The translations under genes were made by a program, and so were the position numbers. From positions 1 to 42,457 of IMG/VR virus record IMGVR_UViG_3300035701_001993: a stretch of 42,457 nucleotides of DNA; one strand, 5' to 3'. This document shows, one piece after another, positions 5,229 through 37,077 of this stretch; within the stretch, counting starts at the first letter, position 1, and every line of letters begins with the position of its first letter. This DNA comes from a virus. The notes under the pieces were generated by a model. That model saw only the letters and a program-made list of their open reading frames with translations. It was not told the DNA's origin and did not search any database.

Positions 5229-5245
5229 CATAGGAGCGCCCTAAG

Positions 5246-19761: not shown

Positions 19762-20364
19762 ATGGCTACTTTTTATTGGGAATATTTTGGTGGTGCAGGC
19801 CCAGCTTGGACTGACATGTCTACCAATACCATTGTGTTTGCTGGTAGTAATACTGATTTAACAGTTCCTGTTACAGTAGGAACCTGGCAAGATGGCACTC
19901 ATATGGGTAATGATGACCCAGGAACAGACCAATGTGGTGCTCAACATATGAGAAATATTAAGTATGTAACATCTGGTCAGTTTGACCAAGGTTTTGGTAC
20001 ATATTTCTTAAGCATGGGTCAGATTGCTGCTAGTGGTTGTACTGTTAGAGTTAGATTTACAGATGCTTCTCCTGTAGCAATTACAAGTGCCCGTCTTTAT
20101 GCATTTGATGGTTCTACTGTTACTACTAGAGCTACTGATGTAGAAGTATTTGGTTGGGAAAGACAACCATCTGGTATTATGACTTGGTCTAATGTTAATG
20201 ACTATTCTGCTGCTCAAGGTGGAGATAATGCTGGTCAAAGACTAGATTTATTGAATCAAGCTGCTTCTACAGAACATCATTACTATATTGTATTATCAGC
20301 TAGACCAGAATCAGTCGGTGCTAAGACTTCATTTGATTTCGGCGTTGCTTTAACTTATTCATAA
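19762..20364 (+). CDS. Putative virion structural protein
   Basis: This 200-residue protein is Gly/Thr/Ser-rich and beta-stranded (FYWEYFGGAGPAWTDM, ending FDFGVALTYS), with few charges and no cytoplasmic enzyme motif. The composition and the location ahead of the fibre genes suggest a tail, baseplate or decoration protein. A strong TTAGGAG site precedes the ATG. Family not recognised. Confidence 0.6.
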   Translation: MATFYWEYFGGAGPAWTDMSTNTIVFAGSNTDLTVPVTVGTWQDGTHMGNDDPGTDQCGAQHMRNIKYVTSGQFDQGFGTYFLSMGQIAASGCTVRVRFTDASPVAITSARLYAFDGSTVTTRATDVEVFGWERQPSGIMTWSNVNDYSAAQGGDNAGQRLDLLNQAASTEHHYYIVLSARPESVGAKTSFDFGVALTYS

Positions 20365-20386: not shown

Positions 20387-20767
20387 ATGGAAAAATTTCA
20401 AGGATGGACAGCAACATTATCAAACGGTGAAAATGTATGGGAATCTCCACCAGTTCCTGGTGAGAGATATGCATGGCAAAAATTAATAACTCGTTTAAAT
20501 AATGAAAATTTAAAAATTACAAGTTTGCGTGTACAAAGAGGTAGAGTAACTCTTCATGCCTTATCACAGAAAACCTGTGATGGATACTATCAAGCCTATG
20601 ACAAACATAAAGCATTAATCTCTGGAGAAGAAACACTTAGACAGGGATGTGGTTCTGTAATAGGTGATAAAGTATTTATCCAATGGATAGATGAAAATGG
20701 TAATGTATGGTCTGATATTAGACCTTTTGGAATGGAAAAACCTCATACTACACTTAGAGATACTTAA
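20387..20767 (+). CDS. Hypothetical protein, possibly virion-associated
   Basis: This 126-residue protein has two segments that look like beta sandwich strands (ITSLRVQRGRVTLHAL; KVFIQWIDENGNVW) and an FQGWTATLSNGENVWE start. The central GYYQAYDKHKALISGEETLRQG recalls small proteins encoded beside phage tail genes. GGAAGGGATGT precedes the ATG. Function unknown. Confidence 0.55.
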   Translation: MEKFQGWTATLSNGENVWESPPVPGERYAWQKLITRLNNENLKITSLRVQRGRVTLHALSQKTCDGYYQAYDKHKALISGEETLRQGCGSVIGDKVFIQWIDENGNVWSDIRPFGMEKPHTTLRDT

Positions 20768-20883: not shown

Positions 20884-22575
20884 ATGGCTCAATTTGGATA
20901 CCCAACTTCAGATATAACAGCAGGCAACTGGACAAATGTAGGAGGCCCAACTACTCATTATGAATGTTTGGATGAAGTTTCCTATAGTGATAGTGACTAT
21001 TGCCAACTCAATAACTATTCATCAGATACTTTTGAAGTTAGGCTAAATACACTTACCGACCCTGTAAGTTCGTCAAACCATGTTGTGCACCTTAGAGTAC
21101 AAAAGGTTGGTACAGGAACAATCAACCTTACCTGTTATCTTGTCCAGAATACAACTGTCTTAGTAACACAATCTCTCACACTTACGACTAGTTGGGCTGA
21201 TGTAAGTTTTACTCTTACAGGTGCTCAGGCTGATTCTATTACTGATTATACTAACTTGAGACTTAGATTCACAGGAACAGCAGGCTCTTCAAGCAGATAT
21301 GTAAGAGTTTCATGGGCTAACTTAGAAGTCCCTAATGGGCCTGCAATAACCTCTAAGTCTGCATATATGAGAGGTGCAGTAGAAGCTAGATATACAGCAG
21401 GATTCGCAGATTTTCCGTCTATAACTATTTTAGATAATTTTAATAGAGCTTCTTTAGGTAGTCAATGGGTAGTAAATGCTGGAAGCCCCTCTATATATAA
21501 CAACTCTGTATTAAATCTAGCTGGTGCTGATATTCAATATGCTTCTGGAGTTTCGTGGCCTGTTGAATTTTTTATGACCATTTCTGGTTTTCCTACAGAC
21601 CCACAATTTTATCAAGTTTATTTAGATTATAATTTACATAACGGTACAGGGTCTACTAAAACCACGTACCGTTATTCTTTTGGATTTATTCATAATGATG
21701 GTGCTTTAAATGGTGTAGAACTACAAAAGTCTGTTAATGATGGTGCATTTACTAATATAATAACAACTGGAGCATATACATGGCCTAATGGAACTCCATC
21801 AGTAAAATTTGGACTTAGGCATTTAGATAATGGTAATATTTATATATATCTAAATAAAGGTTCTGGTTGGGAATTGACAAAGACAGGTAATGATTCATCA
21901 ATTATAGCATCAGGTTGGTGGAGATTACAGGGTGGTACTGATACAGGTAATGAATACTTTGATGATTTTGCATTAGGACATCCTCAACTTGGAAATGGTG
22001 GAAGACCAGCATATGTAAGAGGTGGTACAGTCGCAACACCTACTGTTAGACATGCTTATATCAATGGTAAAACAGCAGGCACTTCTGTAACAACTAGTAA
22101 ATCAGCCTATACAAAAGGAAGAGCATCTTCAACATATAGCAAATCAGCATTTGTTTTAGGATTAGATAATCGTTATTATCCAAGCATTGATATTTCAGCA
22201 TCTGGTGTATGGAGAAATGAATTAAAAGGCACTACTAATTTATATCAAAGTATAGATGAACCTTTGCCAGCAAATGATAATGATTATATTTATCCTGATA
22301 TTCTTTTTACTGGAAATTATTATGAATGTAAGTTAGGTAATCCATTATCAACTCCAGGAAGTGGAGCAGTAGTATTATTTTGGAGAGGTAATGACCAAAC
22401 TGGATTGGGTTCAAAAGCTAAAGTAGAATTAAGACAAGGAATAACTGTATTAGCATCTGGTCAGCAAATATTAACATCTGTACCAACAACTTATTATATA
22501 CAATTAACTCCAGCACAAAGAACAAATATTAGTGATTGGAGTGATTTAAGAGTAAGAATAATTGTTGCATCATAA
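20884..22575 (+). CDS. Tail fibre / adhesin-like protein with SKSAY modules
   Basis: This 563-residue protein has an N-terminal beta-sandwich module (about 1-155), then a SKSAY-type module (ITSKSAYMRGAVEA). A LamG/concanavalin-like domain spans about 180-365 (LDNFNRASLGSQW...). Four further SKSAY-type modules follow around 375-430, and a second beta-sandwich occupies about 435-563, homologous by eye to the N-terminal one. Such sandwiches usually bind glycans. It is probably an elongated virion appendage. It shares both module types with the next two genes. TTAGGAG precedes the ATG, downstream of a structured leader. Confidence 0.75.
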   Translation: MAQFGYPTSDITAGNWTNVGGPTTHYECLDEVSYSDSDYCQLNNYSSDTFEVRLNTLTDPVSSSNHVVHLRVQKVGTGTINLTCYLVQNTTVLVTQSLTLTTSWADVSFTLTGAQADSITDYTNLRLRFTGTAGSSSRYVRVSWANLEVPNGPAITSKSAYMRGAVEARYTAGFADFPSITILDNFNRASLGSQWVVNAGSPSIYNNSVLNLAGADIQYASGVSWPVEFFMTISGFPTDPQFYQVYLDYNLHNGTGSTKTTYRYSFGFIHNDGALNGVELQKSVNDGAFTNIITTGAYTWPNGTPSVKFGLRHLDNGNIYIYLNKGSGWELTKTGNDSSIIASGWWRLQGGTDTGNEYFDDFALGHPQLGNGGRPAYVRGGTVATPTVRHAYINGKTAGTSVTTSKSAYTKGRASSTYSKSAFVLGLDNRYYPSIDISASGVWRNELKGTTNLYQSIDEPLPANDNDYIYPDILFTGNYYECKLGNPLSTPGSGAVVLFWRGNDQTGLGSKAKVELRQGITVLASGQQILTSVPTTYYIQLTPAQRTNISDWSDLRVRIIVAS

Positions 22576-22584
22576 GGATTTATT

Positions 22585-24237
22585 ATGTCATATTATACTA
22601 AAGTAAATTATTTTACACTAAATACTTCTAAAGAACAAGGAGATGTTGAAGTTATAACAGGTCTTGGATTTAGACCAAAGTTAATTTTCTTTTGGGAAAT
22701 GTATTATACTGCTCCAATTAATATTTGGCATAGTGGTGATTTTGATTACTGTTATGGTGTATGTAATGATGCAGGGGAGCAGGGAGTTATAAGTGGAAGA
22801 ACACGCCAACACCAGAATAGTACATCTCTTAGTTCTCAAAGAATGATGGATAACGCTTGTTTACAAACATATACTTGGGCTTCTGCTGGTAATTACTCAG
22901 CTAAAATAATGTCACTTGTTTCGACAGATAATGATGGGTTTACCCTTAGATATATGATAAATTGTAATGACGCACATAGTAAAACTTGGTTTTTAGCTAT
23001 TGGTGGAGATGAACTAAAGCAAACTAAAATTAGTTATTTTGATTATCCAGCAACTACTGGATTATTTAGTATAACTAATACATTATTTAAACCAGATGCG
23101 TTAATAATATATAATAATTTGGCAGCACATAGAGTATCTACAGGAAGTCATATTTATACGTCTATAGGGTGGGCTTCTGCTCCTAATAGACAATCAGTTG
23201 TAAGTTGGTTTAATCAATCTGGAGTAGGAATATCTAATACTTCAAGATATGGGTCTGATTCAGATATTATGGGATGTGCAGGAACTTCAAGTCTTGTTGG
23301 AAGAGCGTCTTTATATAAATTTGATAAGAGTGGATTTACTTTAAATAAATTAAGTGGGAGTGGGGGGAAAGCAATTTATGTTGCTATGCGTGGTGGTAAA
23401 TATCGTGTAGGAAGTTTGCTTACCCGTATGGATACTGGTGATATTATAGAAAATATTGGGTATAAGCCAGGTGCAGTTATGTTTGCTAGTGCTAATATGC
23501 CAAAAAGTAGTGCAGGTGTTCAATCAGACCACGCTCAATTTAGTTTTGGAGCAGCTACTTCTTCTGGTTCTACAGCAGCACATAATATATATATACCTGA
23601 TGGATGGGATGAAGTATGGAACTGGTATGCAGTTAATGATAATGCAGTATATACTAATAAATCCCCTGCATCTGGAAGAATGTATGTTAAAGTATTAGAT
23701 AATACTGGATTTACCTGTACAATGGCAACAGCAGATACAGCACAAAATTGGATTTCATATTTTTCTTTTGCTCCTACATCATCAGGAACTACACAACGTA
23801 AGGCTTATGTATTAGGTGGTGGACAATCTTTACTTCCAGATTCTGACGTTTATGCAGATTCATGGACAAATTCTGCTAGTGGAACAACTATTTTATATCC
23901 ATATTTAAGAGATAATAATCCATCAACTTATATTACATATGTAAATATGCCAGTTGGAAGTGGAACATTTGAAGTTGGATTATCTAATCCAACAGACATA
24001 GTAGAATCAGGTGAGTGGTATTTAGAATATATGGCATGTATTAGAGATAGCATAGCATCAGGTCTTTTGCAAACTGAATTATTACAAGGTTCTTTATCAA
24101 TAGCTTCAGGCATTACAGTAATTGGGCCTTCTTCAACTCCAAGTTTATATAGATATTATCTTACTGGAAATGAAATAGCCCAAGTTACAAATTTAAATGA
24201 TTTGAGAATTAGAATGACTGTATTAGGAATACAATAA
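22585..24237 (+). CDS. Tail fibre / adhesin-like protein with repeated GFxPK domains
   Basis: This 550-residue protein holds three diverged copies of a domain whose signature is (V/I)xxLGFRPKLIFFW. They begin at about residues 20, 150 (LFKPDALIIY) and 280 (IGYKPGAVMFA), and each ends with a GFT(L/C) strand. I know this domain type from uncharacterised phage appendages. One SKSAY-like module (TQRKAYVLGG) follows, then a C-terminal beta-sandwich homologous to the end of the 20884-22575 protein. Likely a receptor-binding or fibre component. AAGGATTTATTATG gives the start. Confidence 0.75.
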   Translation: MSYYTKVNYFTLNTSKEQGDVEVITGLGFRPKLIFFWEMYYTAPINIWHSGDFDYCYGVCNDAGEQGVISGRTRQHQNSTSLSSQRMMDNACLQTYTWASAGNYSAKIMSLVSTDNDGFTLRYMINCNDAHSKTWFLAIGGDELKQTKISYFDYPATTGLFSITNTLFKPDALIIYNNLAAHRVSTGSHIYTSIGWASAPNRQSVVSWFNQSGVGISNTSRYGSDSDIMGCAGTSSLVGRASLYKFDKSGFTLNKLSGSGGKAIYVAMRGGKYRVGSLLTRMDTGDIIENIGYKPGAVMFASANMPKSSAGVQSDHAQFSFGAATSSGSTAAHNIYIPDGWDEVWNWYAVNDNAVYTNKSPASGRMYVKVLDNTGFTCTMATADTAQNWISYFSFAPTSSGTTQRKAYVLGGGQSLLPDSDVYADSWTNSASGTTILYPYLRDNNPSTYITYVNMPVGSGTFEVGLSNPTDIVESGEWYLEYMACIRDSIASGLLQTELLQGSLSIASGITVIGPSSTPSLYRYYLTGNEIAQVTNLNDLRIRMTVLGIQ

Positions 24238-24238
24238 T

Positions 24239-27200
24239 ATGGCAGGAAACCAGATAACACCATTCTTAATGTTTGGATGGGACTATGGTGCAGGTGATGG
24301 CACAGGCATTGACCTACATTCTTATCATACTAGTTGGGGCTGGCTTGAACTAGATACTATTATAAAACATGGTAGTGGAACTGGTTCTGCATCTCTTATG
24401 AATGTAGGTGGTTTATTAACTTATACATTTGCTTTACTACAACCAGAGGCTGACCCAAATATTTTAGTTGGTTCTGTATATTTAAGATGGGATGATTTAG
24501 CAGGATATTTTGAAAATGACCCTCCAAGTACTAGTTGGGGCGCTGATTATAGGGAATTTACTTCTGATAATTCTATATTTTCAATTGCTTTAGCTGCTGG
24601 AACAAGTATAACTTTTAATGTAAGCCATACTACACATAAAATATATATTAACTCTGATACAAATCAATGTGATGTAGTTTTAGATAATTTTCTAGGAACA
24701 TGGGTAAAGTTAGATTTTAAAATAGATTGTTCAACTGGATATACATATGTTAATTACAAAGTTAATGGGGTTACAGGGCCTCAGTATATAATTCAACAGA
24801 CAGCTACAACCATAACAGAACTTCTACTCGATAATAATACTTATTGTAAAATTTGGTATGATGACTTTGTACTTAGTAAAACTGCTAGTGATTATCCTAT
24901 TGCTCCATATAAATTTATATCAATAAGACCAAATGCAGATGGCACACATAATAATGCTATTAATACACTAGAAAATCAGTCTGGTGGAGATATTGATGGA
25001 AGTTCAATTTATGCATACCCTCTTGTGGGAAAAGATGTATCAGGGGATGCTCCTACTATATATATTCGTCAAAATCTTAGTGGAAATACTAAATATGTAG
25101 AAGTTCAGCTTGAAGATATTGTTGATATTAGTGTTATGGGTGCTTGTGCTAATTTACACCATGATGATAATAATCAAGCATATCCAGCAGATGAAGCTTT
25201 TGCAGGTTGTATTGTAAGAGATTCAGATGGACAAGTTACTGAAGTTTTAGGAGGCCCTAGTAATCAAGTAAACTATGTTGCTTCATTTTCTGGTAGTCTA
25301 GTAGCAATAGCTAAACCATCTGGTGGTTGGACAAAAGATTATGTCAATAGTTTAAGAGCACGTTTTGGATACATGACAAGTGCTTCAACTTGTAATCCTT
25401 GGTGGGTAGAGTTTTTTGTAAATGTAATAGTTGAATTAAAAGCATCTCCAGCAATTGCTGAAGCTAAATTAGTCATTCCAAAATATGCTGGAGCAGGTGT
25501 TTCTGCATCTTCACAATCAGCATATATTTATGGTGTAGAATCTACAGTTAAAAAACCAGCCTTTGTAAAAGGTCAGGCAGGGTTTAAGATAGAATGGGTA
25601 GCTCTTGGAACTCCTGCTCCATCTTTTCCAACATCTTCAACATCAAAAAGTGCTTATACCAAAGGTAGAAATACTACTTCTACTTCTAAATCTGCTTACA
25701 TGTTTGGTGGTGAGCCAAAAACTAGTAAATCTGCTTATGTACGTGGTATAGCTAATGTTTCATCCTATCGTTATGTATATATTAAAGGTATATCTTCAAC
25801 CTTAACTTCTAAACCTGCATATGTTAGGGGTGGTAATTCTGGAATTAGTAACAAATCTGCATTTGTAAAAGGAAAGAATACTGGTCTTGCATCTAAATCC
25901 GCATATATAAAAGGTGTTACAGGAGCTTTAACTAGTAAAACAGCTTATGTAAAAGGAAGAAATACTGGAGTTACAAATAAGCCAGCATATATCAGGGGTA
26001 AAAATACTGGTGTAACTTCTAAGGTGGCATTTGTAAAAGGCAAGGATAATACTTTAACTAGTAAATTTGCTTATATAAAAGGCAAGAATACTTCTATAAC
26101 TTCTAAGTCTGCATATCTCAGAGGTAGTATAAATATTACTACTTCTAAGTTTGCCTTCTTAAAGGGTAAAAGTAATATAGTTACTTCTAAATATGCATAT
26201 ATTAGAGGTAAGAATACTGGTGTTACTAATAAAGCAGCCTATGTAAGAGGAGCAACAGGGGCATTAACTTCTAAGGCAGCATACGTAAAAGGTAAAATTA
26301 CTTCTATAACTAGTAAGTCAGCTTATATATTTGGTATTGTACGTACTTCTAAATCTGCCTTTATTAGTGGTATTATTCGTACTTCTAAATCAGCATATAT
26401 CAAAGGTAAAAGTATTGGAGTTACAAATAAACCTGCCTATACAAGAGGTGCAACTGGAGCAACAACTTCAAAACAGGCATACATAAAAGGTAAGGATGTT
26501 TCTGTTACAAACAAATCAGCTTATATAAAAGGAAAGATTTCTACAGCTACTTCAAAAGCAGCTTATGTACGTGGACTGGCTGATGAAGAAACTGTTATTC
26601 ATGCATATGTAAAAGGTAAGCTTTCTACAACTACTTCTAAGTCAGCTTTTACAAAAGGTAAAATTACTCTTGTAACTAATAAGCCAGCATTTATCAAAGG
26701 TGGTGTGGTTATAACCACATCTAAGCAAGTATATATAGGAGGTAAAAATACAAGTGTAAGTAGTAAATCAGCCTTTATTAATGGACAGTCTGGTGGAATT
26801 ATTACATCAAAATCTGCCTATATTAAAGGTGTAAGTACAGCAATAACAAGTAGATATGCTTATGTTAAAGGTTGGAATACAGGATTATCCAGTAAGTCAG
26901 CGTTTATCAAAGGTAGAAATACATTAGTTGGAAATAAACCAGCGTTTATTCAAGGTAAGAATACTGGAGTTTCTTCCAAATCAGCATTTATCAGAGGAAA
27001 TTCTTTACTAGTAACTAATAAACCAGCTTTTACTAAAGGTTTATCAACAGGAATTACGTCTAAATCAGCATTTATACAAGGTAGTAATACATTAATTGGA
27101 AGTAAATCTGCTTATATTAATGGAACAGATATTACTTTATGCTCTAATAAAGCTAGAGACTTTTATACAACTCCAAATAGAATAGATTGGCCTAGTGTGT

Positions 27201-29128
27201 TTGATGTTACAGGGTCTCCTATAACAATTACTGCATGGATATGGGCAGATACTACTCCAGTTAATACACAATATATTTGGACTGCACATAGACCTGGGAA
27301 TACTGCATATGGTGCTGCATTTACTATATATGCAGGAACAAATAATTTAGATTTTTTTAGAAGTGGTACTGTATTACTTGATAGAATAACTACAGTTGGT
27401 TCAGTTCCAACTAAAACATGGCTTCATGTAGCAGTAACTCATACTGGTGTAATGACTGATTATAATACTATTCATATTTATAAAGATGGTATTGAACAGT
27501 CATATCTAACAGGAGTTAATGGTGCTGGTGAATATGTAGCTAGTGGTAGTTGGTCAATTGGTGGTCGTATTTATGATGCAGGAAGACAATTTGATGGTAG
27601 AATTGGTGAGGTTGCGGTATGGAATAGGATATTGTCGTCTGGTGAAATTTCATACTTATCTTCTCATACTGGTCAAATACATTCTGCTACATTCATCCCT
27701 AGTGGATTAATGTTTGCTGAACATCCATATATACCAGAAAACTTAGTAACTGAAGTAGATGGAACATTAACTGGAACATCTCTTACTTTAGGGCCTTGTT
27801 TAGATTATTTTGATTATACTAATAAGCCTGCATATATAAAAGGTATAGCTAATGCAGTAACAAATAAACAAGCTTTTGTTAGTGGTTATTCATCTAATGT
27901 AACTACTAAATCTGCGTATGTAAAAGGTAGAAGTAGCACATTAACAAATAAATCAGCCTACATACGTGGTTCTATAAATGTTCAAACTAATAAAGCTGCT
28001 TATTTGAAAGGTAGAACTAGTGATTTAACTTCTAAACCCGCTTATGTAAAAGGTAGACAATCTACAGTTACTTCAAAGTTTGCTTATACCAGAGGTTCAA
28101 CAAGTCAAGTTACTTCTAAATCAGCTTTTATTAAAGGTAGAAGTATTGGTATAACTTCTAAATTTGCTTATGTTGCTGGTAAACTCTCTATAACTACTTC
28201 TAAACCAGCATATGTTAGAGGCTCAACAAATCAAGTTACATCTAAACCAGCTTTTATCAAAGGTGGGATAGTTTCTACAAGTAACAAAGCAGCTTTTATC
28301 AAAGGCAGAACTAATGTTGTTACATCGAAGTCAGCTTTCATAAATGGTTATTCTGCTAATGCTACATCTATCCATGCATATATCAAAGGTAGAATTAATG
28401 TTGTAACAAATAAGGCTGCTTTTGTACAAGGTATAATAAGAACATCTAAATATGCTTACATAAAAGGTAGAGTATTTATATCTACTAATCAATCTGCATA
28501 TATAGTTGGTAAAAATACAGCAATTACTTCAAAATCTGCGTATATACGTGGAAAAATACTAGTAAATACACAAAAATCTGCATATTTGTCAGGAAAAAGT
28601 ACTATTCAAACCTTGACAAAAGCATATATATATGGTATAATAAGTACAAATACTAATAAACCAGCTTATATAAAAGGCAGAAGTGTTGGTACAATATCTA
28701 AGCCAGCTTATATATCTGGTAAAAGTTTAATAACTACATCTATTCATGCTTATACCAAAGGTGGTATAGCTGTAAGTAATTCTAAACCATCCTACATAAA
28801 AGGTAGGGGTGTAGTAAACACAGCAACACATGCTTATGTTAGAGGATATTTATCTAATGTAACATCCAAATCAGCTTACATATATGGTAATGTTATTACC
28901 AGAAGTTCTGTAAAAGCTTATATCTTTGGAACAACAGCTACATCAGAACATATAATTGAATGTGAAACTGTAATAAATACAAAGATAGATTGTAAGACAG
29001 TAATAAATACAGCCCTAGCAGCAGATGTAGAAGTAAATACTCAAATTAAAACCCATGCTGCTATAACTAATTTAATAGGATACGATGTTATCATAAATTC
29101 GATAATAAATAGGATTGTAAAAATATGA
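24239..29128 (+). CDS. Giant repetitive fibre protein (about 65 SKSAY modules)
   Basis: This 1629-residue protein has a LamG-like N-terminal domain (about 1-220, VYLRWDDLAGYF) and a beta-sandwich module (about 225-395). About 38 copies of a 14-residue module follow (about 425-965), with consensus [T/S][S/N]K-x-A-[Y/F]-[I/V/T]-[K/R]-G-x(5). A second LamG domain lies at about 970-1185 (TITAWIWADTTP; HIYKDGIEQ), then about 27 further modules (1195-1570) and a unique C-terminal tail of about 60 residues rich in Ile and Thr. The modules are basic and rich in Ser/Thr, with strictly spaced aromatics, suiting a long beta-structured fibre. Copy number could vary by recombination. It is directly upstream of the glycan cassette. 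Confidence 0.85.
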   Translation: MAGNQITPFLMFGWDYGAGDGTGIDLHSYHTSWGWLELDTIIKHGSGTGSASLMNVGGLLTYTFALLQPEADPNILVGSVYLRWDDLAGYFENDPPSTSWGADYREFTSDNSIFSIALAAGTSITFNVSHTTHKIYINSDTNQCDVVLDNFLGTWVKLDFKIDCSTGYTYVNYKVNGVTGPQYIIQQTATTITELLLDNNTYCKIWYDDFVLSKTASDYPIAPYKFISIRPNADGTHNNAINTLENQSGGDIDGSSIYAYPLVGKDVSGDAPTIYIRQNLSGNTKYVEVQLEDIVDISVMGACANLHHDDNNQAYPADEAFAGCIVRDSDGQVTEVLGGPSNQVNYVASFSGSLVAIAKPSGGWTKDYVNSLRARFGYMTSASTCNPWWVEFFVNVIVELKASPAIAEAKLVIPKYAGAGVSASSQSAYIYGVESTVKKPAFVKGQAGFKIEWVALGTPAPSFPTSSTSKSAYTKGRNTTSTSKSAYMFGGEPKTSKSAYVRGIANVSSYRYVYIKGISSTLTSKPAYVRGGNSGISNKSAFVKGKNTGLASKSAYIKGVTGALTSKTAYVKGRNTGVTNKPAYIRGKNTGVTSKVAFVKGKDNTLTSKFAYIKGKNTSITSKSAYLRGSINITTSKFAFLKGKSNIVTSKYAYIRGKNTGVTNKAAYVRGATGALTSKAAYVKGKITSITSKSAYIFGIVRTSKSAFISGIIRTSKSAYIKGKSIGVTNKPAYTRGATGATTSKQAYIKGKDVSVTNKSAYIKGKISTATSKAAYVRGLADEETVIHAYVKGKLSTTTSKSAFTKGKITLVTNKPAFIKGGVVITTSKQVYIGGKNTSVSSKSAFINGQSGGIITSKSAYIKGVSTAITSRYAYVKGWNTGLSSKSAFIKGRNTLVGNKPAFIQGKNTGVSSKSAFIRGNSLLVTNKPAFTKGLSTGITSKSAFIQGSNTLIGSKSAYINGTDITLCSNKARDFYTTPNRIDWPSVFDVTGSPITITAWIWADTTPVNTQYIWTAHRPGNTAYGAAFTIYAGTNNLDFFRSGTVLLDRITTVGSVPTKTWLHVAVTHTGVMTDYNTIHIYKDGIEQSYLTGVNGAGEYVASGSWSIGGRIYDAGRQFDGRIGEVAVWNRILSSGEISYLSSHTGQIHSATFIPSGLMFAEHPYIPENLVTEVDGTLTGTSLTLGPCLDYFDYTNKPAYIKGIANAVTNKQAFVSGYSSNVTTKSAYVKGRSSTLTNKSAYIRGSINVQTNKAAYLKGRTSDLTSKPAYVKGRQSTVTSKFAYTRGSTSQVTSKSAFIKGRSIGITSKFAYVAGKLSITTSKPAYVRGSTNQVTSKPAFIKGGIVSTSNKAAFIKGRTNVVTSKSAFINGYSANATSIHAYIKGRINVVTNKAAFVQGIIRTSKYAYIKGRVFISTNQSAYIVGKNTAITSKSAYIRGKILVNTQKSAYLSGKSTIQTLTKAYIYGIISTNTNKPAYIKGRSVGTISKPAYISGKSLITTSIHAYTKGGIAVSNSKPSYIKGRGVVNTATHAYVRGYLSNVTSKSAYIYGNVITRSSVKAYIFGTTATSEHIIECETVINTKIDCKTVINTALAADVEVNTQIKTHAAITNLIGYDVIINSIINRIVKI
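25505..27133 (+). repeat. Protein-level tandem repeat block 1 (42-bp unit, about 38 copies)
   Basis: The unit is 42 bp (14 codons). A few units are 36 bp (12 codons, for example those ending GIVR and GIIR) or one codon longer. The DNA copies are well diverged at third positions, so the array is old and held by selection on the protein, apart from patches such as KNTGV that recur almost unchanged. Confidence 0.85.
27814..28947 (+). repeat. Protein-level tandem repeat block 2 (42-bp unit, about 27 copies)
   Basis: The same module as block 1, resuming after the internal LamG domain. Variants replace the SK dipeptide (TSIHAY, TATHAY, TLTKAY) but keep the A-Y and G positions, showing which residues are structurally required. 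Confidence 0.85.
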
Positions 29129-29448
29129 CACATATTATAATTTTTAAAGCAGATTATGGTCATCTCTTAAAAGTAGAAGTAAATGAATATGATGAACTTA
29201 CTGGAGTAGAATCTCCTTCTAATTTAGCTCCATATACTTCTAAATGGATTATTGGTAAGAAACCAAATGATGAAGTTGTTTATCTGCCAGCAGTAGCTAG
29301 TGGAATAAATTATTTAATTTCAACTATTCCATCTGGGTTTTTATCATTAACAGGATTTTACCAGTTTACAGTAATATTAGAAAATGCACTACAAAGATTT
29401 CATTCAACAGAGTTTGGATTTGATGTAACAATACCAAAAGAACAATAA
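29125..29448 (+). CDS. Hypothetical protein, possibly virion-associated
   Basis: This 107-residue protein reads as a small beta-sandwich: IIIFKADYGHLLKVEV, YTSKWIIGKKPNDEVVYL, YQFTVILENALQRFHS. The layout resembles N-terminal attachment domains of baseplate or fibre proteins. Its ATG overlaps the stop of the giant fibre gene (ATGA), so it is coupled to it and may be its cap, chaperone or anchor. Not recognised by family. Confidence 0.6.
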   Translation: MTHIIIFKADYGHLLKVEVNEYDELTGVESPSNLAPYTSKWIIGKKPNDEVVYLPAVASGINYLISTIPSGFLSLTGFYQFTVILENALQRFHSTEFGFDVTIPKEQ

Positions 29449-29460
29449 GGAAGGGTGATT

Positions 29461-30714
29461 ATGGCACACAAAATTCAGAGTTCGTGTAGGATTTGTGGGG
29501 GAGGGTTAAGAAAAGTTTTAGATTTAGGAAATATATATCCATCTAATTTTGTTGATAAGACTGAAGGTAAAGCAGTTCCACTAGCCTTAGTGGAATGTAA
29601 ATCTTGTGGTCTTGTTCAACTTAAACATACAGTAGATTTAGATGAGATGTATAGAACATATTTCTACCAATCAGCTATTAATCCATCAATGGTAAAATCT
29701 TTACAAGATGTTGTAACTGATATTGAAAATACTATAAAGATTGAGGACTTAGATGTATTAGTAGATATTGGATGTAATGATGGGATAATGTTTAGTCTAT
29801 ATAAAAATAGAGTTGCTTATAGAGTAGGATATGACCCAGCTTTAAATTTAGCAGAGAAGGCTAAAAGTTATTGTACTACTTTTATTAATGATTATTTTTG
29901 TAAAGATACCTATATGTTTAATAAAGCAAAAGTAGTTACAGCTATTGCTATGTTTTATGATTTACCAGACCCAAATAAATTTGTTCGGGATGTAGTAGAT
30001 ATTTTAGCTGATGATGGTATATTTGTAATTCAATTTACAGACTTGCTTTCTATGTTGAAAATAAATGCTATTGATAATATTTGTCATGAACATTTAGAAT
30101 ATTATAAACTAAGTGATGTTAGAAATCTATTAGATAAGTTTGGATTAGATATTTTTAAGGTATCTTATAACAAAGTCAATGGTGGAAGTGTAAGGGTATT
30201 TGCTGGAAGAAATGAATACTATCCCATTGAAGGAAGTGTATTACAGGCTATAGCAGATGAAAGAGTTTACTTAGATAGTTTTGAAAATCCTATGAAAGCA
30301 TTTGCTGACCGTGTTAGTAATATAAAGAAAATTGTATTAGACTTTTTATGTAGAGCAGAAGATGCTGGAATTAGATTATATGGTATGGGAGCATCTACAA
30401 AAGGAAATACTTTACTTCAATATTTTGGGATTACAAAAAAATTAATACCAGTTATTGCTGAAGTAAATCCAGATAAATTTGGCAAGAAAACCATAGCTAC
30501 TAATATTCCAATTATAGCAGAAGAGCAAGCATTTAAAGAATATCCTGAAATGTTTTTTATACTTCCTTGGCATTTTGTAGAAGATTTTGTTATTAGAAAT
30601 AAAAAGTTTCTGGATGATGGAGGTGCATTTATTGTACCACTTCCAGAACCAGTTATTTATTATTTAGAGAATGGAGAACTAAAATGGACATCACTAGAAA
30701 AAGTATTGGGATGA
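29461..30714 (+). CDS. Zn-binding class I C-methyltransferase-like protein (NDP-sugar type)
   Basis: This 417-residue protein starts with a four-Cys zinc domain (SCRICGG at residues 6-12, then ECKSCGLVQL). A SAM-binding Rossmann domain follows (VDIGCNDGIMFSLYK) with a downstream EHLEYY segment. The C-terminal domain holds LYGMGASTKGNTLLQYFGI and IPIIAEEQAFKEYPEMFFIL. This three-part layout is that of TylC3-like NDP-hexose 3-C-methyltransferases and relatives in sugar clusters. It probably methylates a nucleotide-activated sugar. ATG 29461 is best spaced from GGAAGGG; an in-frame GTG lies six bases upstream. Confidence 0.82.
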   Translation: MAHKIQSSCRICGGGLRKVLDLGNIYPSNFVDKTEGKAVPLALVECKSCGLVQLKHTVDLDEMYRTYFYQSAINPSMVKSLQDVVTDIENTIKIEDLDVLVDIGCNDGIMFSLYKNRVAYRVGYDPALNLAEKAKSYCTTFINDYFCKDTYMFNKAKVVTAIAMFYDLPDPNKFVRDVVDILADDGIFVIQFTDLLSMLKINAIDNICHEHLEYYKLSDVRNLLDKFGLDIFKVSYNKVNGGSVRVFAGRNEYYPIEGSVLQAIADERVYLDSFENPMKAFADRVSNIKKIVLDFLCRAEDAGIRLYGMGASTKGNTLLQYFGITKKLIPVIAEVNPDKFGKKTIATNIPIIAEEQAFKEYPEMFFILPWHFVEDFVIRNKKFLDDGGAFIVPLPEPVIYYLENGELKWTSLEKVLG

Positions 30715-30944
30715 TTATTGATGAATTAATTACCACTAATCTTCGTTGTTGGATGGCTCAAGAAGATATTATGAATATAAATTTAACAACAAAGAAACGG
30801 TTAGATGCGGCTGAGAGAGCACAAATTATGAACGCAAAACGGTCTGCTTTGATAAAAGCTATTGATACAGAATTAGGTTATGGAGATATATCTACTACTT
30901 TAAAAACATATTATACATATGATGATGAGGAGAGGAAGAAATGA
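30684..30944 (+). CDS. Small protein of a glycan-cluster type
   Basis: This 86-residue helical protein contains SIGMIIDELITTNLRCWMAQED and, later, NAKRSALIKAIDTEL. I have seen this pattern in short proteins encoded within bacterial polysaccharide and nucleotide-sugar clusters, where their function is unclear. It overlaps the methyltransferase gene by 31 bp and the epimerase gene by 4 bp, fixing it in this operon. GGAG precedes the ATG. Confidence 0.65.
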   Translation: MDITRKSIGMIIDELITTNLRCWMAQEDIMNINLTTKKRLDAAERAQIMNAKRSALIKAIDTELGYGDISTTLKTYYTYDDEERKK

Positions 30945-31918
30945 CTAAAGCATTAGTAACAGGAGCAGGTGGGTTTATTGGATACCACCTTACAAATTAT
31001 TTAAAAGATATTGGATATTGGGTAAGAGGCGTAGATACTAAATATCCTAAGTATGGTGGAACTAGAGCAGATGAATTTTTAAAATTAGATTTAAAAGAAT
31101 TTGAAAATGCAGAAGTATCTACAGATGGGGTAGATTATGTATTTGGATTGGCTGCTGATATGGGTGGAATGGGATTTATTTCTAAAAATCATTCCATGAT
31201 TATGATTAATAATACATTAATGAATATGAATACATTAAGTGCTGCTAGAATAAATGGTGTAGAAAGATATTTCTTTTCATCATCTGCTTGTGTATATCCA
31301 GAATTTTTACAAGAAAAAACAGATGTTACACCTTTAAAAGAATCAGATGCTTATCCAGCACAGCCTCAAGATGGATATGGGTGGGAAAAACTAACAATGG
31401 AAAAGTTATGTCAATACCATAGACAAGAGTATGGTATGAATACTTATATTGCTAGATTTCATAATGTATATGGGCCTCAGGGAAGTTGGATAGGTGGTAG
31501 AGAAAAAGCTCCTGCAGCTTTGTGTAGAAAGATAGCTATGGCTAATTTATCAGCAAATCCAAATGTTGAGGTTTGGGGAGATGGAAAACAAACAAGGTCA
31601 TTCTGTTATGTTTCTGATATAGTAGAAGGCATTGTTAAATTAATTGAATCAGATTATCATGAACCTTTAAATATTGGTAGTGATAAGATGGTAACAATTG
31701 ATGAAGTAGCAGATATTATTGCTGAGATTGCTGGAATCAGGATTGAAAAAAATTATAATCTGGATGGTCCCCAAGGAGTTAGAGGAAGAAATTCTGATAA
31801 TACTAAAGTAAAAGAAATCTTAGGGTGGGAACCAAAAGTTTCTTTAGAAAATGGTTTACTTAGAACTTATGCTTGGATTTATGAACAGGTTAGGGAACAG
31901 GGATTAGTTTCAGTATGA
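30941..31918 (+). CDS. GDP-mannose 3,5-epimerase-like SDR enzyme
   Basis: This 325-residue extended short-chain dehydrogenase/reductase has VTGAGGFIG at the N-terminus (NAD-binding GxxGxxG, residues 8-14). AADMGGMGFISKNHSMIM is a hallmark of GDP-mannose 3,5-epimerases. It also has SSSACVYPEF, DGYGWEKL (catalytic Tyr-x3-Lys) and RFHNVYGPQGSW..GGREKAPAA. The resemblance to plant and bacterial GME is strong. The reaction turns GDP-D-mannose into GDP-L-galactose (or GDP-L-gulose). This gives the cassette a defined activated sugar. ATGA overlap with the previous gene and GAGGAGAGG upstream support the start. Confidence 0.9.
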   Translation: MTKALVTGAGGFIGYHLTNYLKDIGYWVRGVDTKYPKYGGTRADEFLKLDLKEFENAEVSTDGVDYVFGLAADMGGMGFISKNHSMIMINNTLMNMNTLSAARINGVERYFFSSSACVYPEFLQEKTDVTPLKESDAYPAQPQDGYGWEKLTMEKLCQYHRQEYGMNTYIARFHNVYGPQGSWIGGREKAPAALCRKIAMANLSANPNVEVWGDGKQTRSFCYVSDIVEGIVKLIESDYHEPLNIGSDKMVTIDEVADIIAEIAGIRIEKNYNLDGPQGVRGRNSDNTKVKEILGWEPKVSLENGLLRTYAWIYEQVREQGLVSV

Positions 31919-32760
31919 CTACCTATGGAGTATGTATAATTAGTAGGAACGATGACTATGGGCAAAATTTATTAGAAAGAGCTACCTATTGTTTAAATTC
32001 AATGATAGTAACTTATGATGAAGTTATGTATGTAGATTGGAATACAGACAATGATAAATTAACTATGGTAGAAGAAATACAAAATGATTTAATACATACA
32101 GGAAATTTTAAATGGATAAGGGTTACTCCAGAACAAGCTAAGGAGTGGACATGGAATGACCCAGAAGCACAAGTTGTATGTGAAACTCAAGCAAGAAATG
32201 TTGGATTAGCTAGAATGAAATCTGATTTTTTGGTTTCAACAAATATTGATTGTATTACTCCCAAAAGACATCATATAGAAAGAGTAGTAAATCCTGATGT
32301 ATTTTTTACTACAGGAGTTAGAACAATTTCTTTATATGTAGTTAGAGAATTAGGAGCAAGAATAGACCCAATTTCTTACATGAATGGTCTAGATGCTTTG
32401 GAAGGACAGTACCCACAGCAACCTCCAACAAGTGTACATTGGAATGATAAATATTCTTTAGTGAGTAATTGTGGAGATATGCAAATTGGGCATAGACAAA
32501 TATGGCATGATATGAAAGGCTTTGAAGAAAGATTTACTGGTAGAGCATATATGGATAGTAATGTTCAAATGAAATCTGTACTTGCTGGACATGGTTTAGC
32601 AGTAGATTGGAGTCTTCCTATTTGGCATATAGGACACGAAGCTGGATTTGGAGGAAGTGGTAAAATAAATAGTTGTGATGAAGCTTTTACAATGACACAA
32701 ACAACAAATCCAGACGCATGGGGACATACTGACATAGGATTGGAGATATATGACTTATGA
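31915..32760 (+). CDS. Glycosyltransferase-like protein (GT-A fold suspected)
   Basis: This 281-residue protein begins TTYGVCIISRNDDYGQNLLERA, with YVDWNTDNDK shortly after. ETQARNVGLARMKSDFLVSTNIDCITPKR resembles the A-R-N-x-G-x(6)-D-x-L-x(3)-D-x-D region of GT-A enzymes, with NID in place of DxD. A later GFEERFTGRAYMD matches the GGFDE..GWGxED-like acceptor/catalytic block. It probably transfers a sugar from an activated donor. Specificity unknown. ATGA overlaps on both sides. Confidence 0.7.
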   Translation: MTTYGVCIISRNDDYGQNLLERATYCLNSMIVTYDEVMYVDWNTDNDKLTMVEEIQNDLIHTGNFKWIRVTPEQAKEWTWNDPEAQVVCETQARNVGLARMKSDFLVSTNIDCITPKRHHIERVVNPDVFFTTGVRTISLYVVRELGARIDPISYMNGLDALEGQYPQQPPTSVHWNDKYSLVSNCGDMQIGHRQIWHDMKGFEERFTGRAYMDSNVQMKSVLAGHGLAVDWSLPIWHIGHEAGFGGSGKINSCDEAFTMTQTTNPDAWGHTDIGLEIYDL

Positions 32761-33686
32761 AAAAATTTATTGTTACAACAACTATTTATGAACCAACCCC
32801 AGCTACTTTGAAATATGCTGAGATGGAAGATTGGACATTTATTGTAGTGGGAGATTTAAAAACCCCACATGATAGTTATAAGAATCTAAATTTGATATAT
32901 TTATCTCCAGACGTACAACAATCTTTATATCCAAAAGTAAGTGAATTAATTGGTTGGAATTGTATCATGAGGAGAAATTTAGGATTTTTACATGCGTATA
33001 AATTAGGTGCAGATATTGTTGCTAGTATAGATGATGATAATATTCCATATGAAAATTGGGGAAAGGATGTAAGAGTAGGTACAGAGCAACTAGTTGATGT
33101 TTGGGATTGTAATTCTATAATAGCATTTGACCCAATGAAGATGACTAACTATTCTCACCTATGGCATAGAGGTTATCCAATAAGTCATTTATCCTTAGCT
33201 AGTGGATTACACTATGAAGGTAAACAAACTAAGAAAATTTTATTCCAAGCAGATTTATGGGATGGAGACCCCGATGTGGATGCAATTTGTAGACAAATGT
33301 ATTGGCCTGTAGATTTAAAATTAAAAGTAGATGCTCCATTTACATCAGAATTATACATGCCATTTAATAGTCAAAATACTTTTATTGCTAGAGAAGCTTT
33401 GCCTTATTATATGGTTTTACCACATGTAGGCAGAGTGGATGATATTTGGGGTGGGTATATAGCAGAATATCTTTTAGATACTAGACCACTATTTATGCCT
33501 CCTACTACATATCAAAAAAGAAATGAACAGTCTATAAAAAAGAATTTAGAAGATGAGATGTATGGTTACGTAAATACTTATGATTTTCTTTTTAATATTG
33601 AAGATTACGTTAGTTTCTTACCTAATAGAACAGCAAAAGCATTGATAGAATATAGGAATGAATATGATAGAATTGACAATAGCTAG
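32757..33686 (+). CDS. STELLO-like glycosyltransferase
   Basis: This 309-residue protein starts KKFIVTTTIYEPTPATLKYAEM and includes WTFIVVGDLKTPHDSY. The block IGWNCIMRRNLGFLHAYKLG then ADIVASIDDDNIPYENW carries the acidic DDD metal/nucleotide site. This is the arrangement of the DUF288/STELLO family (GT-A type), known in plants and nematodes and present in some bacterial and phage clusters. It sits between two other glycan-related genes with 4-bp and 23-bp overlaps. The sugar donor is not known. Confidence 0.75.
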   Translation: MKKFIVTTTIYEPTPATLKYAEMEDWTFIVVGDLKTPHDSYKNLNLIYLSPDVQQSLYPKVSELIGWNCIMRRNLGFLHAYKLGADIVASIDDDNIPYENWGKDVRVGTEQLVDVWDCNSIIAFDPMKMTNYSHLWHRGYPISHLSLASGLHYEGKQTKKILFQADLWDGDPDVDAICRQMYWPVDLKLKVDAPFTSELYMPFNSQNTFIAREALPYYMVLPHVGRVDDIWGGYIAEYLLDTRPLFMPPTTYQKRNEQSIKKNLEDEMYGYVNTYDFLFNIEDYVSFLPNRTAKALIEYRNEYDRIDNS

Positions 33687-34323
33687 AGATATAGATAGAA
33701 TAGTTTACAATGACTTTATATATAATCAACCTTGGATAAATATATTAGATATGTTATCAGTTAGTTGTATAGAAACTATAGTTGATATTGGTGCTTCAAG
33801 TGGCATAAGTTCTTTATGGTTATTAGGAAAATTACCCAATGTAAAAACTATTTATTGTTTTGAACCAGATTTAGAAAATTATAATATGTTACTTATAAAT
33901 TTATCAAAGTTTGAAGATAAGATAGTTCCACATAATTTGGGTATTTATTATGGAATGGAATCATCTAAGGTATATGGCATTGGTGATAATAGTCCACTAG
34001 GTTATTGTGTACAGACAATAAAAGATAGAACAGTTACTGAACATGTATTTACTGAATATGAAGGAAAGGTATTTAAATTGGCAGAGTTAGAATCAATAGT
34101 AAACTTTCCAGTAGATTTAATAAAAGTTGATATAGAAGGTTCTGAATATAATGTTATAGAAAATTCAACTATTTTAAAACAAGCAAGATATTTATTATTG
34201 TCTTTTCATAATCAATATGAATCATATGTTCAAGATTTTATAAAAACACATCTTAATAATTATGAAACTATATTTTTTGGTGGGTCAGGAGTTTATTTTG
34301 ATGTATTCTTGGAAAGGAAATAA
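33664..34323 (+). CDS. FkbM-family methyltransferase
   Basis: This 219-residue protein has VDIGASSGISSLWLLG as SAM-binding motif I, FEPDLENYNMLLINL as motif II, and FPVDLIKVDIEGSEYNVI as the hallmark FkbM segment. FkbM-type enzymes O-methylate sugars or other small hydroxyl groups and are frequent in glycan clusters. The ATG at 33664 has AGGA six bases upstream; an ATG six bases earlier is too close to it. It probably methylates the glycan built by its neighbours. Confidence 0.85.
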   Translation: MIELTIARDIDRIVYNDFIYNQPWINILDMLSVSCIETIVDIGASSGISSLWLLGKLPNVKTIYCFEPDLENYNMLLINLSKFEDKIVPHNLGIYYGMESSKVYGIGDNSPLGYCVQTIKDRTVTEHVFTEYEGKVFKLAELESIVNFPVDLIKVDIEGSEYNVIENSTILKQARYLLLSFHNQYESYVQDFIKTHLNNYETIFFGGSGVYFDVFLERK

Positions 34324-34325
34324 GT

Positions 34326-35627
34326 ATGTCAAGTATTGTATTTTTAGAGGATAAATTAAGAACAGATAAATTAGGAATTTTATATTTATCTAGAATACTT
34401 AAGGATGCTGGACATACAGTAGATTTAGTTCAGGCACATAAGGAAGAAATACCAGAAGCAGATTTTATTATGTGTTCTGTAATGTCTGGTGAACATGAAT
34501 GGTTCTTTAATAAATTAGCAGAGTTGAAAAAGACTAGAAAATTTACTGCAGTAGTTGGTGGGCCTCACTTTACCTTTTTCCCTGAAGCTGGATTGAAAGA
34601 TAAAAATATTGATTATGTAGTAGTAGGCCCTGGAGAAAATGTAATTTTAGATATAGTAAATGGGAAAATAACAACTAAATTAGTTCGTGGTAGTTTACCA
34701 AATATAGATTCTTTGTCTTCACCTGATAGGTCTATCCAGTATAAATATGATGATTTTGGAAAGGCAAGGATGAAAAGATTTATAGCAGGAAGATATTGTC
34801 TTTATAGTTGTACATACTGTTTCAATCATTTATTCAAGAAATTATACCAAGAACAAAAGAAAGATTTCTTTCAAAGAGTATCTCCAGAAAAAATGATAGA
34901 AGAAATATTGGAAGTAAAAAGAGATTATGGATTAGAATTAGTTTATTTCAATGATGATGATTTGGCATCTGATAAAGAATGGTTAGCAAAATTTTGTACA
35001 TTAATAAAGCAAACTGGATTACAGTATTGTGGTTCTGTTAGAGCTAATAGTATACTTGATAATAATATATTTGATACTTCCACTATAGAAATGATGGCTT
35101 ATTCTGGATGTGTATTTCTTAATATAGCATTAGAATCTGCTGTACCAGAAACACAAAAATTATTAAGACGTGGTTTTGTTACTAATGAACAAATAAGATT
35201 TGCCACTCAAGCCTGTGAATTTCATGGAATAAAAGTTAGACTTCAAAATATGATTGGTCTTCCTGTAGAAAATCCATTAGAAGATGCTCTTGAAACTTTA
35301 AAAATGAATCAAGAACTAGAACCTACAGATTCTTGGTGTGCTATATTTCAACCATTTCCAAGAACAGATTTATGGAAATACTGTTTAGATAAAGGATTAA
35401 TTACAGAAGAAACTCAGGCACAAGCGTTTTATGAACATACACCTTTGAATATTATTGATGCAGATAAAATTAATAGATTACATAAATGGTGGTTTTTTGC
35501 AATCAAATATCAATGGCCTATGGAATTAGTTAAAATACTTTTAGATACACCATTAACTAAAGAGCAAGAAATTAGAATACAAGACTATAGATGGGAAGTA
35601 GGAAAAACTTTATTATATGGAATGTAG
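34326..35627 (+). CDS. B12-binding-type radical SAM protein
   Basis: This 433-residue protein has an N-terminal cobalamin-binding-like Rossmann domain (about 1-130: LGILYLSRILKDAGHTVDLV, VVGGPHFTFFPE, VVVGPGE). The radical SAM core has RYCLYSCTYC with Cys at about 158, 162 and 165, followed by LVYFNDDDLASD and ALESAVPETQKLLRRG, typical of the superfamily. The DxHxxG cobalamin-ligand motif is not visible. Class B members methylate unactivated carbons or phosphinates. Within this sugar cassette, C-methylation or another radical edit of a sugar is a reasonable inference. GGAAAGGAAATAAGT precedes the ATG. Confidence 0.87.
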   Translation: MSSIVFLEDKLRTDKLGILYLSRILKDAGHTVDLVQAHKEEIPEADFIMCSVMSGEHEWFFNKLAELKKTRKFTAVVGGPHFTFFPEAGLKDKNIDYVVVGPGENVILDIVNGKITTKLVRGSLPNIDSLSSPDRSIQYKYDDFGKARMKRFIAGRYCLYSCTYCFNHLFKKLYQEQKKDFFQRVSPEKMIEEILEVKRDYGLELVYFNDDDLASDKEWLAKFCTLIKQTGLQYCGSVRANSILDNNIFDTSTIEMMAYSGCVFLNIALESAVPETQKLLRRGFVTNEQIRFATQACEFHGIKVRLQNMIGLPVENPLEDALETLKMNQELEPTDSWCAIFQPFPRTDLWKYCLDKGLITEETQAQAFYEHTPLNIIDADKINRLHKWWFFAIKYQWPMELVKILLDTPLTKEQEIRIQDYRWEVGKTLLYGM

Positions 35628-35635
35628 GAGAGGTT

Positions 35636-36373
35636 ATGAATAAAATAGCATGTAGTCATCCAGGAAAAATTGGGGATGCGGTTTACGCATTACCTGCCAT
35701 TAGAAAAGCATGTGAAATTAATAATACAACAGCAGATTTTTATACTAGTGATTATTGTAAACCTTTAAAGAAATTATTTGAGTATCAAAGTTGTATTAAT
35801 GAATTTTGTATACCAGATAATTATCATATTGAAAGGATGGATATGGGTGTTCAACCGTTTGTTATGCCTATAGATACTTCTGAATATGATAGAGTTTATC
35901 AAATGGGATTTAGATGGGTACCAGACAGAGCAATACCAGATTTTATAGCACTATCTGTTGGGATACCACTTCCTGTTGTTGTAGAATATGAATATCCAGA
36001 ATTTGATACTATGGATGAGCCTTTTATTGTGGTAGCACCCAGAGGTGAAACTTCGTATAAAGGATTATTTAATGATTTTATAAAAGTCTGTCCGCTTAAA
36101 TGTGTAGTTGTAGGTGGGTTTGGAGACTATACAGGATTTGGAATTGACTTAACAGGACAAGATTTACTAGAAACAACTACTTGGATTGCTAATTCAATAG
36201 GATTTTTTGGAATGATGTCATCTCAATTGGCATTAGCAAATGGATTTAATATTCCCAAGATAGCACCACATAACGGAATAAATTGGGATATGAGACATGT
36301 GATTTACAGCGATACTAATTTTTATCCTGTAAATCCAACAGTATCAGAAATTTTAAGGATTTTAAATATTTAG
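35636..36373 (+). CDS. GT9-like (heptosyltransferase-type) protein
   Basis: This 245-residue protein starts MNKIACSHPGKIGDAVYALPAIR, the N-terminal signature of glycosyltransferase family 9 (GT-B fold). VVAPRGETSYKG and VVVGGFGDYTG follow, then a C-terminal FFGMMSSQLALANGFNIPKI that matches the xGxxSxxxHLAxxxxxP donor-binding block. It is shorter than typical GT9 enzymes (about 320-350), so the N-terminal acceptor domain is reduced. ATG 35636 follows GGAGAGGTT; frame upstream of it lies in the previous gene. Confidence 0.75.
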   Translation: MNKIACSHPGKIGDAVYALPAIRKACEINNTTADFYTSDYCKPLKKLFEYQSCINEFCIPDNYHIERMDMGVQPFVMPIDTSEYDRVYQMGFRWVPDRAIPDFIALSVGIPLPVVVEYEYPEFDTMDEPFIVVAPRGETSYKGLFNDFIKVCPLKCVVVGGFGDYTGFGIDLTGQDLLETTTWIANSIGFFGMMSSQLALANGFNIPKIAPHNGINWDMRHVIYSDTNFYPVNPTVSEILRILNI

Positions 36374-36384
36374 GAGAGGTTAAT

Positions 36385-37077
36385 ATGAATGTAAACTTAT
36401 GTATACCAGTTTTAAAAAGATATGATTTATTAATTAAATGCCTTGAATCAGCAGAAGCTGGAACATTAAAACCAGAAAGATATTTTATTATTGATAATGG
36501 TAATAATCTTAATCTAGAATCATTTGATAAATTATATACAAATAAAGTATTTGTTGTAAAAGTTAGGCATAACTTAGGGGTAGCAAGAAGTTGGAATTGG
36601 TTTTTTGATAACGTACCCGATGAAATTGTACTATGTAATGATGATATAGAATTTTATGATGATTCTCTTGAAAAATTAATGAGTGGATATGATGAGAATT
36701 TTTCAATATATCCATCAGAAGGTTCAACTTCATTTTCTTTAATGGCATTTCCAAGAAAAATAATTAATGATGTTGGACATTTTGATGAATCTTTGTCCCC
36801 TTATTATGCTTATTTTGAAGATAATGATTATCATTACAGAATGTTATTAAAAGGATATACTATAAAGGATGTTCCTGGTTGTAGAGTTAAACATGAGAAT
36901 AGTGGAACTATGAAAATGTATACTCCTACAGAAATGAATATGCATCATCAAAAATTTAGAGAAGCAAGAGCTAGGTATCTTGACAAATGGGGCGGAGAGC
37001 CAGTTAAAGAAAAGTTCAAAATACCTTATAATGGAGTCCTACAAGATGGCACTACAAGAAAAGATAACACAGGATGA
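36385..37077 (+). CDS. Family 2-type glycosyltransferase
   Basis: This 230-residue GT-A protein starts NVNLCIPVLKRYDLLIKCLESAE and has FIIDNGNN. RHNLGVARSWNWFFDNV, typical of GT2 rhamnosyl- or galactosyl-transferase-like enzymes, follows, then VLCNDDIEF with NDD as the metal-binding DxD variant, then the acceptor-side HFDESLSPYYAYFEDNDYHYRM. It is short, with no membrane segment, so it is soluble. TAGGAGAGG precedes the ATG. Its 3' end overlaps the terminase start by 32 bp, joining the glycan cassette to the packaging genes in one transcript. Confidence 0.85.
   Translation: MNVNLCIPVLKRYDLLIKCLESAEAGTLKPERYFIIDNGNNLNLESFDKLYTNKVFVVKVRHNLGVARSWNWFFDNVPDEIVLCNDDIEFYDDSLEKLMSGYDENFSIYPSEGSTSFSLMAFPRKIINDVGHFDESLSPYYAYFEDNDYHYRMLLKGYTIKDVPGCRVKHENSGTMKMYTPTEMNMHHQKFREARARYLDKWGGEPVKEKFKIPYNGVLQDGTTRKDNTG

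Follow-up and report, generated by a model that had tools for sequence, protein, structure and literature searches.

What does a virus build from a protein in which one 14-residue unit recurs some 65 times? The question is raised by an open reading frame in the window, by which we mean the entire stretch of DNA analysed (42,457 bases of IMG/VR virus record IMGVR_UViG_3300035701_001993). Viral fibre shafts made of short repeats form a small group from which much about structure can be learned: triple beta-spirals, collagen-like shafts and beta-helices. If the register-locked module described here belongs with them, it would be a component new to virus adhesins and usable in the design of protein rods. 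Its copy number ranges from one to about 80 or more, it accepts whole inserted domains, and it keeps its core while its surface charge flips. It is present in 23 uncultivated virus contigs, the window included, and missing from annotation libraries.

Anatomy of the repeat gene

The repeat protein is encoded at 24239-29128 on the plus strand, as are all the parts listed here; the frame opens with ATG and specifies 1629 amino acids. Its N-terminal globular part (about aa 1-420; 24239-25498) comprises two segments without a Pfam match, both of which have homologues in a related contig, upstream of the array there (L060:8397-10760). There follow a first array of 38 units (25508-27139), a concanavalin A-like domain of the Laminin_G_3 family (PF13385; 27182-27652) lying between two units, a second array of 27 units (27818-28945), and a C-terminal segment, ECKTVINT...RIVKI (28946-29125), common to L014, L019, L024 and L026 of the same lineage. 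The Laminin_G_3 match, at aa 982-1138, has E = 5e-17 and 62.8 bits against a cut-off of 27.6.

An earlier note, made from the letters alone, had placed about 65 copies of a 14-residue module at 25505-28947, in near-constant register with a few 12-residue units and one inserted LamG domain. This description stands almost to the letter. The core regular expression finds 67 places, of which two fall within LamG and were discounted, leaving 65 units between 25508 and 28945, 38 before the domain and 27 after it. Apart from the LamG interruption, neighbouring units are spaced by 14 residues (56 cases), 12 (three), 13 (two), 15 (one) and 31 (one), so that spacings of exactly 14 make up 90%. The core pattern taken three in register is matched 33 times in the window and not once in 100 dinucleotide shuffles of it.

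Register and selection

Across the family the unit reads x-x-[K/Q]-x-[A/I/G]-[Y/F]-[L/I/V/T]-x-G-x(3-8). Spacings pooled over the first set of loci are again dominated by 14 residues (722 cases), with 35 of 15, 28 of 12, 10 of 13 and 9 of 17. Position 6 is Y or F in 99% of units, position 9 is G in 98% and position 5 is A in 82%, figures that are descriptive only, as the regular expression pre-selects these three positions; L, I, T or V occupies position 7. Where a unit has 12, 13, 15 or 17 residues, the difference from 14 is always located C-terminal to the glycine. Composition outside the core varies widely, the array's isoelectric point ranging from 10.5 for the window to 4.1-4.2 for L012, L029 and L015.

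Two units use the same codon for the same residue with a probability of 0.53; the protein's own codon usage predicts 0.50. Synonymous sites are thus saturated, and the protein pattern is therefore under selection, as the earlier note had concluded from synonymous divergence; the fixed A-Y/F-x-x-G and the restriction of indels to one loop bear this out. Recent tandem expansion of the array was considered and rejected, since similarity between units does not depend on the distance separating them and the units map almost one-to-one to those of the close relative L001. The one exception, to this as to the divergence of codons, is a 126-nt tandem duplication of three units inside the second array (28007-28264, plus strand; 76% matches).

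Distribution of the module

Degenerate-codon patterns spelling three units, spaced by 42 nt, picked out 17 virus records in addition to the window; a 49-row profile (A1) matches all 17. In all, 22 other IMG/VR contigs carry the repeat, with as many as about 80 or more units in a run, a wide spread that the first reading of the sequence had missed. Three sub-lineages emerged through the neighbour-protein search described below: L198 (1713 aa), with 84 pairs of cores spaced by 14 residues and the unit D-N-Q-P-I-Y-L-A-G; L192/L194, with D-T-Q-P-I-Y-L-K-G; and L187, with D-S-Q-P-G-Y-L-V-G. Position 5 may therefore be A, I or G. A later pattern scan for the I/V form returned four contigs, all of them already in the neighbour-search set.

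The same kind of pattern applied to 84,980 prokaryote genomes yielded seven stretches, none with an extended array of the unit. Among 50,697 GenBank phage records, tblastn queries made of the full-length protein and of three arrays or their ends matched the LamG domain alone, and the two upstream neighbour proteins found no match in GenBank phages. A PDB sequence search with the protein and the 49-row profile gave nothing credible, and no Pfam, NCBIfam or PHROG model covers the 14-residue unit. Pfam E-values on such repeats can badly mislead: in L198 a tRNase model reaches E = 1.9e-10 with no passing stretch. The earlier note's remark that it knew of no described family with this unit thus survives comparison with these collections, and with PDB folds as well. 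Judged by its sequence, the module is a previously unnamed family, found among the sequences searched only in uncultivated viruses.

Two other repeats were noticed. The first pattern scan brought up a different viral protein, at L018:2247-3392 (plus strand), with YadA-head-like 14-residue repeats (NTASGTGAFAFGRE...). A 7.2-kb viral contig has a 1502-residue open frame (L025:2704-7209, minus strand) packed with AAFAFANGVSTNTT and similar repeats, which seem to be one more type that is still uncharacterised.

Domain insertion and isolated units

The earlier note had proposed comparing copy number among close relatives. In L001, a contig whose identity to the window is 94-96% over long stretches, the array counts 64 units against the window's 65 and has no LamG. 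From about aa 1261 onwards, as far as the C terminus, the two repeat proteins and their DNA are identical; upstream of that point the proteins share 75-100% protein identity per 60-residue block. The LamG bead has therefore been gained or lost between two units, with recombination nearby. Other domains occupy equivalent places elsewhere: DUF6298 and Collagen_bind_2 are enclosed by arrays in L187, and a weak Chondroitinase B match, below cut-off, lies between arrays in L015. Laminin_G_3 in the window and the DUF6298-Collagen_bind_2 pair in L187 belong to the class of carbohydrate-binding or carbohydrate-cleaving domains.

The unit also occurs singly. A 563-aa protein encoded just upstream (20884-22575, plus strand) carries a recurrent 130-aa domain at both ends, joined via isolated or irregular SKSAY units: a single one at aa 156 (nt 21349-21390) and a cluster within 21988-22167. 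The 550-aa protein that follows (22585-24237, plus strand) ends with the same domain, preceded by one degenerate unit (RKAYVLGGG). This domain closes several neighbouring proteins, without a Pfam match where scanned. Searching with a unit profile calibrated on shuffled proteins, we found isolated single units outside array proteins only in genes of the repeat module, between globular domains: at aa 156 of the 20884-22575 product, aa 52 of L046:10127, aa 216 and 482 of L060:6524, and in some L057/L058 proteins. One unit thus suffices as a connector, and 65 would make a shaft.

Genomic neighbourhood

Two conserved genes lie upstream, encoding a 200-aa protein found upstream of repeat genes across lineages (19762-20364, plus strand) and a 126-aa protein (20387-20767, plus strand). 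Both keep about 40-66% identity beside repeat genes of very different composition. When the 200-aa family served as query (the A5 search), the repeat itself being unused, 18 loci were returned, 14 of them usable in having at least 2.5 kb downstream. A repeat gene stands downstream of the 200-aa gene in 12 of these 14; a thirteenth contig, L191, has the repeat at its other end (L027, L036), which brings the contigs with the repeat to 13 of 14, and the usable locus L196 is without a repeat gene.

Directly 3' of the array gene is a gene for a 107-aa protein (29125-29448, plus strand), conserved (~61%) at the equivalent site in L047, L060 and L061. Then come a sugar/methyl modification cassette (29455-37077, plus strand: C-methyltransferase, NAD epimerase, FkbM methyltransferase, B12/radical SAM and GT2), terL and the portal gene. 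The cassette, which has a similar equivalent in two contigs of the same lineage, L047 and L061, is lineage-specific and probably outside the repeat system. Upstream, on the opposite strand, are genes for DNA polymerase A, UvsX and DnaB. Just 5' of the arrays in relatives are genes for right-handed beta-helix proteins and for a tail-fibre/baseplate-like protein. The repeat gene accordingly sits in a structural gene region with tail-fibre-like neighbours, as do genes of the receptor-binding and tail-appendage class. Such a setting is usual for receptor-binding and depolymerase genes, and for this reason we favour an adhesin.

Some features of these genomes were recorded in passing. In the window, terL, the large terminase gene (about 36938-38583, plus strand), is interrupted: it differs by one base from the intact gene L044:260-1903, to which it is otherwise 99.7% identical, and the split may be a sequencing error or a real frameshift. 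A repeat-bearing relative, L045 (the first 18 kb of IMGVR_UViG_3300035659_000020), has about 20 tRNA genes on one strand, and the window has four. A 78-nt RNA at 5243-5320 (minus strand) matches Rfam tmRNA RF00023 with 47.9 bits, in its tRNA-like domain only, with 322 model positions replaced by 27 nt. At least 120 viral contigs (L063-L182) match a pattern written for these arms, mostly over 74-81 nt, the conservation of the acceptor and T arms being partly by construction as the pattern fixes both; ARAGORN called a tRNA in 6 of 120 among the arm-pattern matches listed. This is possibly a widespread phage-encoded mini-tmRNA-like RNA; the literature searched had nothing on it.

Fold of the unit and alternative readings

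The earlier note had suggested a solenoid or beta-stack to which each unit adds one rung. An AlphaFold2 monomer of ten window units, modelled with the 49-row alignment, has pLDDT 65 and pTM 0.50 and shows one 7-residue strand per unit, starting at A5. Ten L012 units gave pLDDT 68 in the best model (others down to 45) and pTM 0.49, with two short strands per unit. Low in confidence, both models are all-beta and place a strand at A-[YF]-[IV]-x-G, but they disagree on strands per unit. Foldseek found no match below E = 0.6 for either model in the PDB, or for the L012 model in BFVD; the weak, non-significant matches are mostly parallel beta-solenoids. Monomer predictions of obligate trimers may mislead, as the authors of the BpaC study point out (PMC9543794). 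A beta nature of the 14-residue unit is plausible.

For a monomeric beta-solenoid or beta-roll, in which each unit is one turn and the array a continuous rod, the 14-residue period with its fixed small, aromatic and glycine core, the two short strands per unit of the L012 model and the leaning of the weak fold matches would all be expected. Such a rod should also show a side-chain ladder. Correlating side chains between adjacent units, a procedure blind at the core positions, which hardly vary, we saw position 3 alone stand out (z = 5 for hydropathy, among several hundred tests); the expected ladder is therefore not evident. With the stacking signal absent at most positions, single units existing in isolation, which a cooperative solenoid leaves unexplained, models that disagree and match nothing significantly, and the one Pfam hint of a beta-roll stronger in permuted units (see below), the one-rung-per-unit proposal of the earlier note, taken as a monomeric solenoid, is one that we regard as possible but less likely than not.

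Low pLDDT, below 70, might instead signify that the array is an entropic spacer, disordered for the most part, which separates lectin-like domains, with the motif as a low-complexity linker. The S/T/K/G-rich composition, the linker-like role of isolated units and the freedom with which surface charge and composition vary, from pI 10.5 to 4.1, agree with this; but a strict 14-residue register maintained despite saturated synonymous sites, an aromatic residue and a glycine that hardly ever vary, and the restriction of indels to a single loop across many contigs indicate an ordered element. We rate a spacer of this sort as less probable than the solenoid.

Less probable again, and by some way, is a mucin-like stalk whose serines and threonines are glycosylated by products of the adjacent sugar cassette. 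Ser and Thr together form about 26% of the window array, and GT2, epimerase and sugar C-methyltransferase genes do lie between the repeat gene and terL. Over the family, however, Ser/Thr is not kept, position 1 often being D and position 2 often N. The GT2 match is confined to the window's lineage and is absent from the repeat-bearing G002, G004, G006, G011, G013, G014 and G016, some of these records being fragments; glycosylation is therefore not general.

An ice-binding, antifreeze-like beta-roll can be dismissed as a claim from sequence, with a probability close to nil: LbR_Ice_bind (PF21300) matches 7 of 49 arrays weakly, at best with E = 1.8e-4 and 22.0 bits, below the curated cut-off of 30, and two of ten controls, in which positions were shuffled within the unit with period and composition kept, match better (8.8e-7 and 5.2e-5; up to 29.4 bits), the similarity being therefore an artefact of period and composition.

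A proposed shaft for a virion-surface adhesin

The reading we prefer, with a probability of roughly 0.6, is that the repeat protein is a virion-surface adhesin of a tailed phage, a fibre, spike or tail appendage, with the 14-residue unit as its shaft or connector. We base it on the 65 in-register units with saturated synonymous sites and length variation only after the glycine; on L001, which keeps its array without LamG, and the other domains between arrays in L187 and L015; on the isolated units joining globular domains (window ORF 20884-22575, L046:10127, L060:6524); on the beta-helix and tail-fibre/baseplate-like neighbours in relatives, with terL and portal 3' in the window; on the recovery of the repeat gene by the upstream-neighbour search (12 of 14 loci, and one elsewhere on its contig); and on the all-beta character of both AlphaFold2 models. 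Against it we count the low scores and divergence of those models, the lack of a PDB or viral fold match, and the ladder signal at position 3 only.

According to this adhesin reading, each unit would consist of a conserved core of about nine residues, x-x-K/Q-x-A-Y-L/I-x-G, and, behind it, a turn of 3-8 residues that tolerates changes of length; the core is probably a beta-strand that stops at the glycine. Units in series, anywhere from a single one to about 80 or more, would determine how far from the virion the globular carbohydrate-active domains stand, presumably within an oligomeric fibre that binds glycans or the host. An array of 65 units would measure about 31 nm as a solenoid rising 0.48 nm per rung, and about 85 nm if it rose about 1.3 nm per repeat in the manner of a triple beta-spiral. 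LamG or, in relatives, enzyme-like domains would be inserted bead-like between units, and their gain or loss would leave the array undisturbed.

We propose more tentatively, and think it rather doubtful, that the A-[Y/F]-[L/I]-x-G module represents a new beta-fibre architecture, an independently folding step that can serve as a connector or as a rod of at least 80 units, accepts domains anywhere, and is restricted to a single clade, or to several, among uncultivated tailed viruses. The motif itself can be used to find adhesion modules in uncultivated viruses.

Comparison with known systems

One candidate relative was set aside on its scores: the T4 gp37 trimerisation region (PF20744) matches 6 of 49 arrays, at best with E = 0.0008 and on the window array with 16.4 bits against a cut-off of 21.7, a quality like that of unrelated control matches. 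The ice-binding beta-roll of Lolium perenne has 14-15 residues per turn and is rich in Thr, Ser and Val (PF21300; PMC5744647), but its NxVxG motif is not the one conserved in the window repeat.

The heads of YadA and BpaC, trimeric autotransporters, are left-handed parallel beta-rolls of 14-residue repeats, up to 42 of them in BpaC (PMC9543794). The window protein resembles them in period, in the length of its arrays and as a putative surface adhesin. It differs in its motif and in having no autotransporter barrel. Its low-confidence monomer models gave no fold match, and the YadA head Pfam model matched neither the window protein nor the 49 arrays at E <= 0.1.

The shaft of the adenovirus fibre is a triple beta-spiral of 15-residue repeats (PMC7248032), whereas the period here is 14, and its Pfam model likewise had no match at E <= 0.1 in the window protein or the 49 arrays. 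Unlike those of the adenovirus fibre, the globular domains of the window protein are N-terminal and mid-array, not at the tip only, and single units act as linkers. The plan is nevertheless alike: a putative viral attachment protein with a shaft of short tandem repeats, variable in copy number, and a globular binding domain. In crAssphage, a protein with tandem BACON domains has a suspected carbohydrate-binding function (PMC6949934); its repeats are whole domains rather than 14-residue units, but it too is a phage protein that combines tandem repetition with suspected carbohydrate binding.
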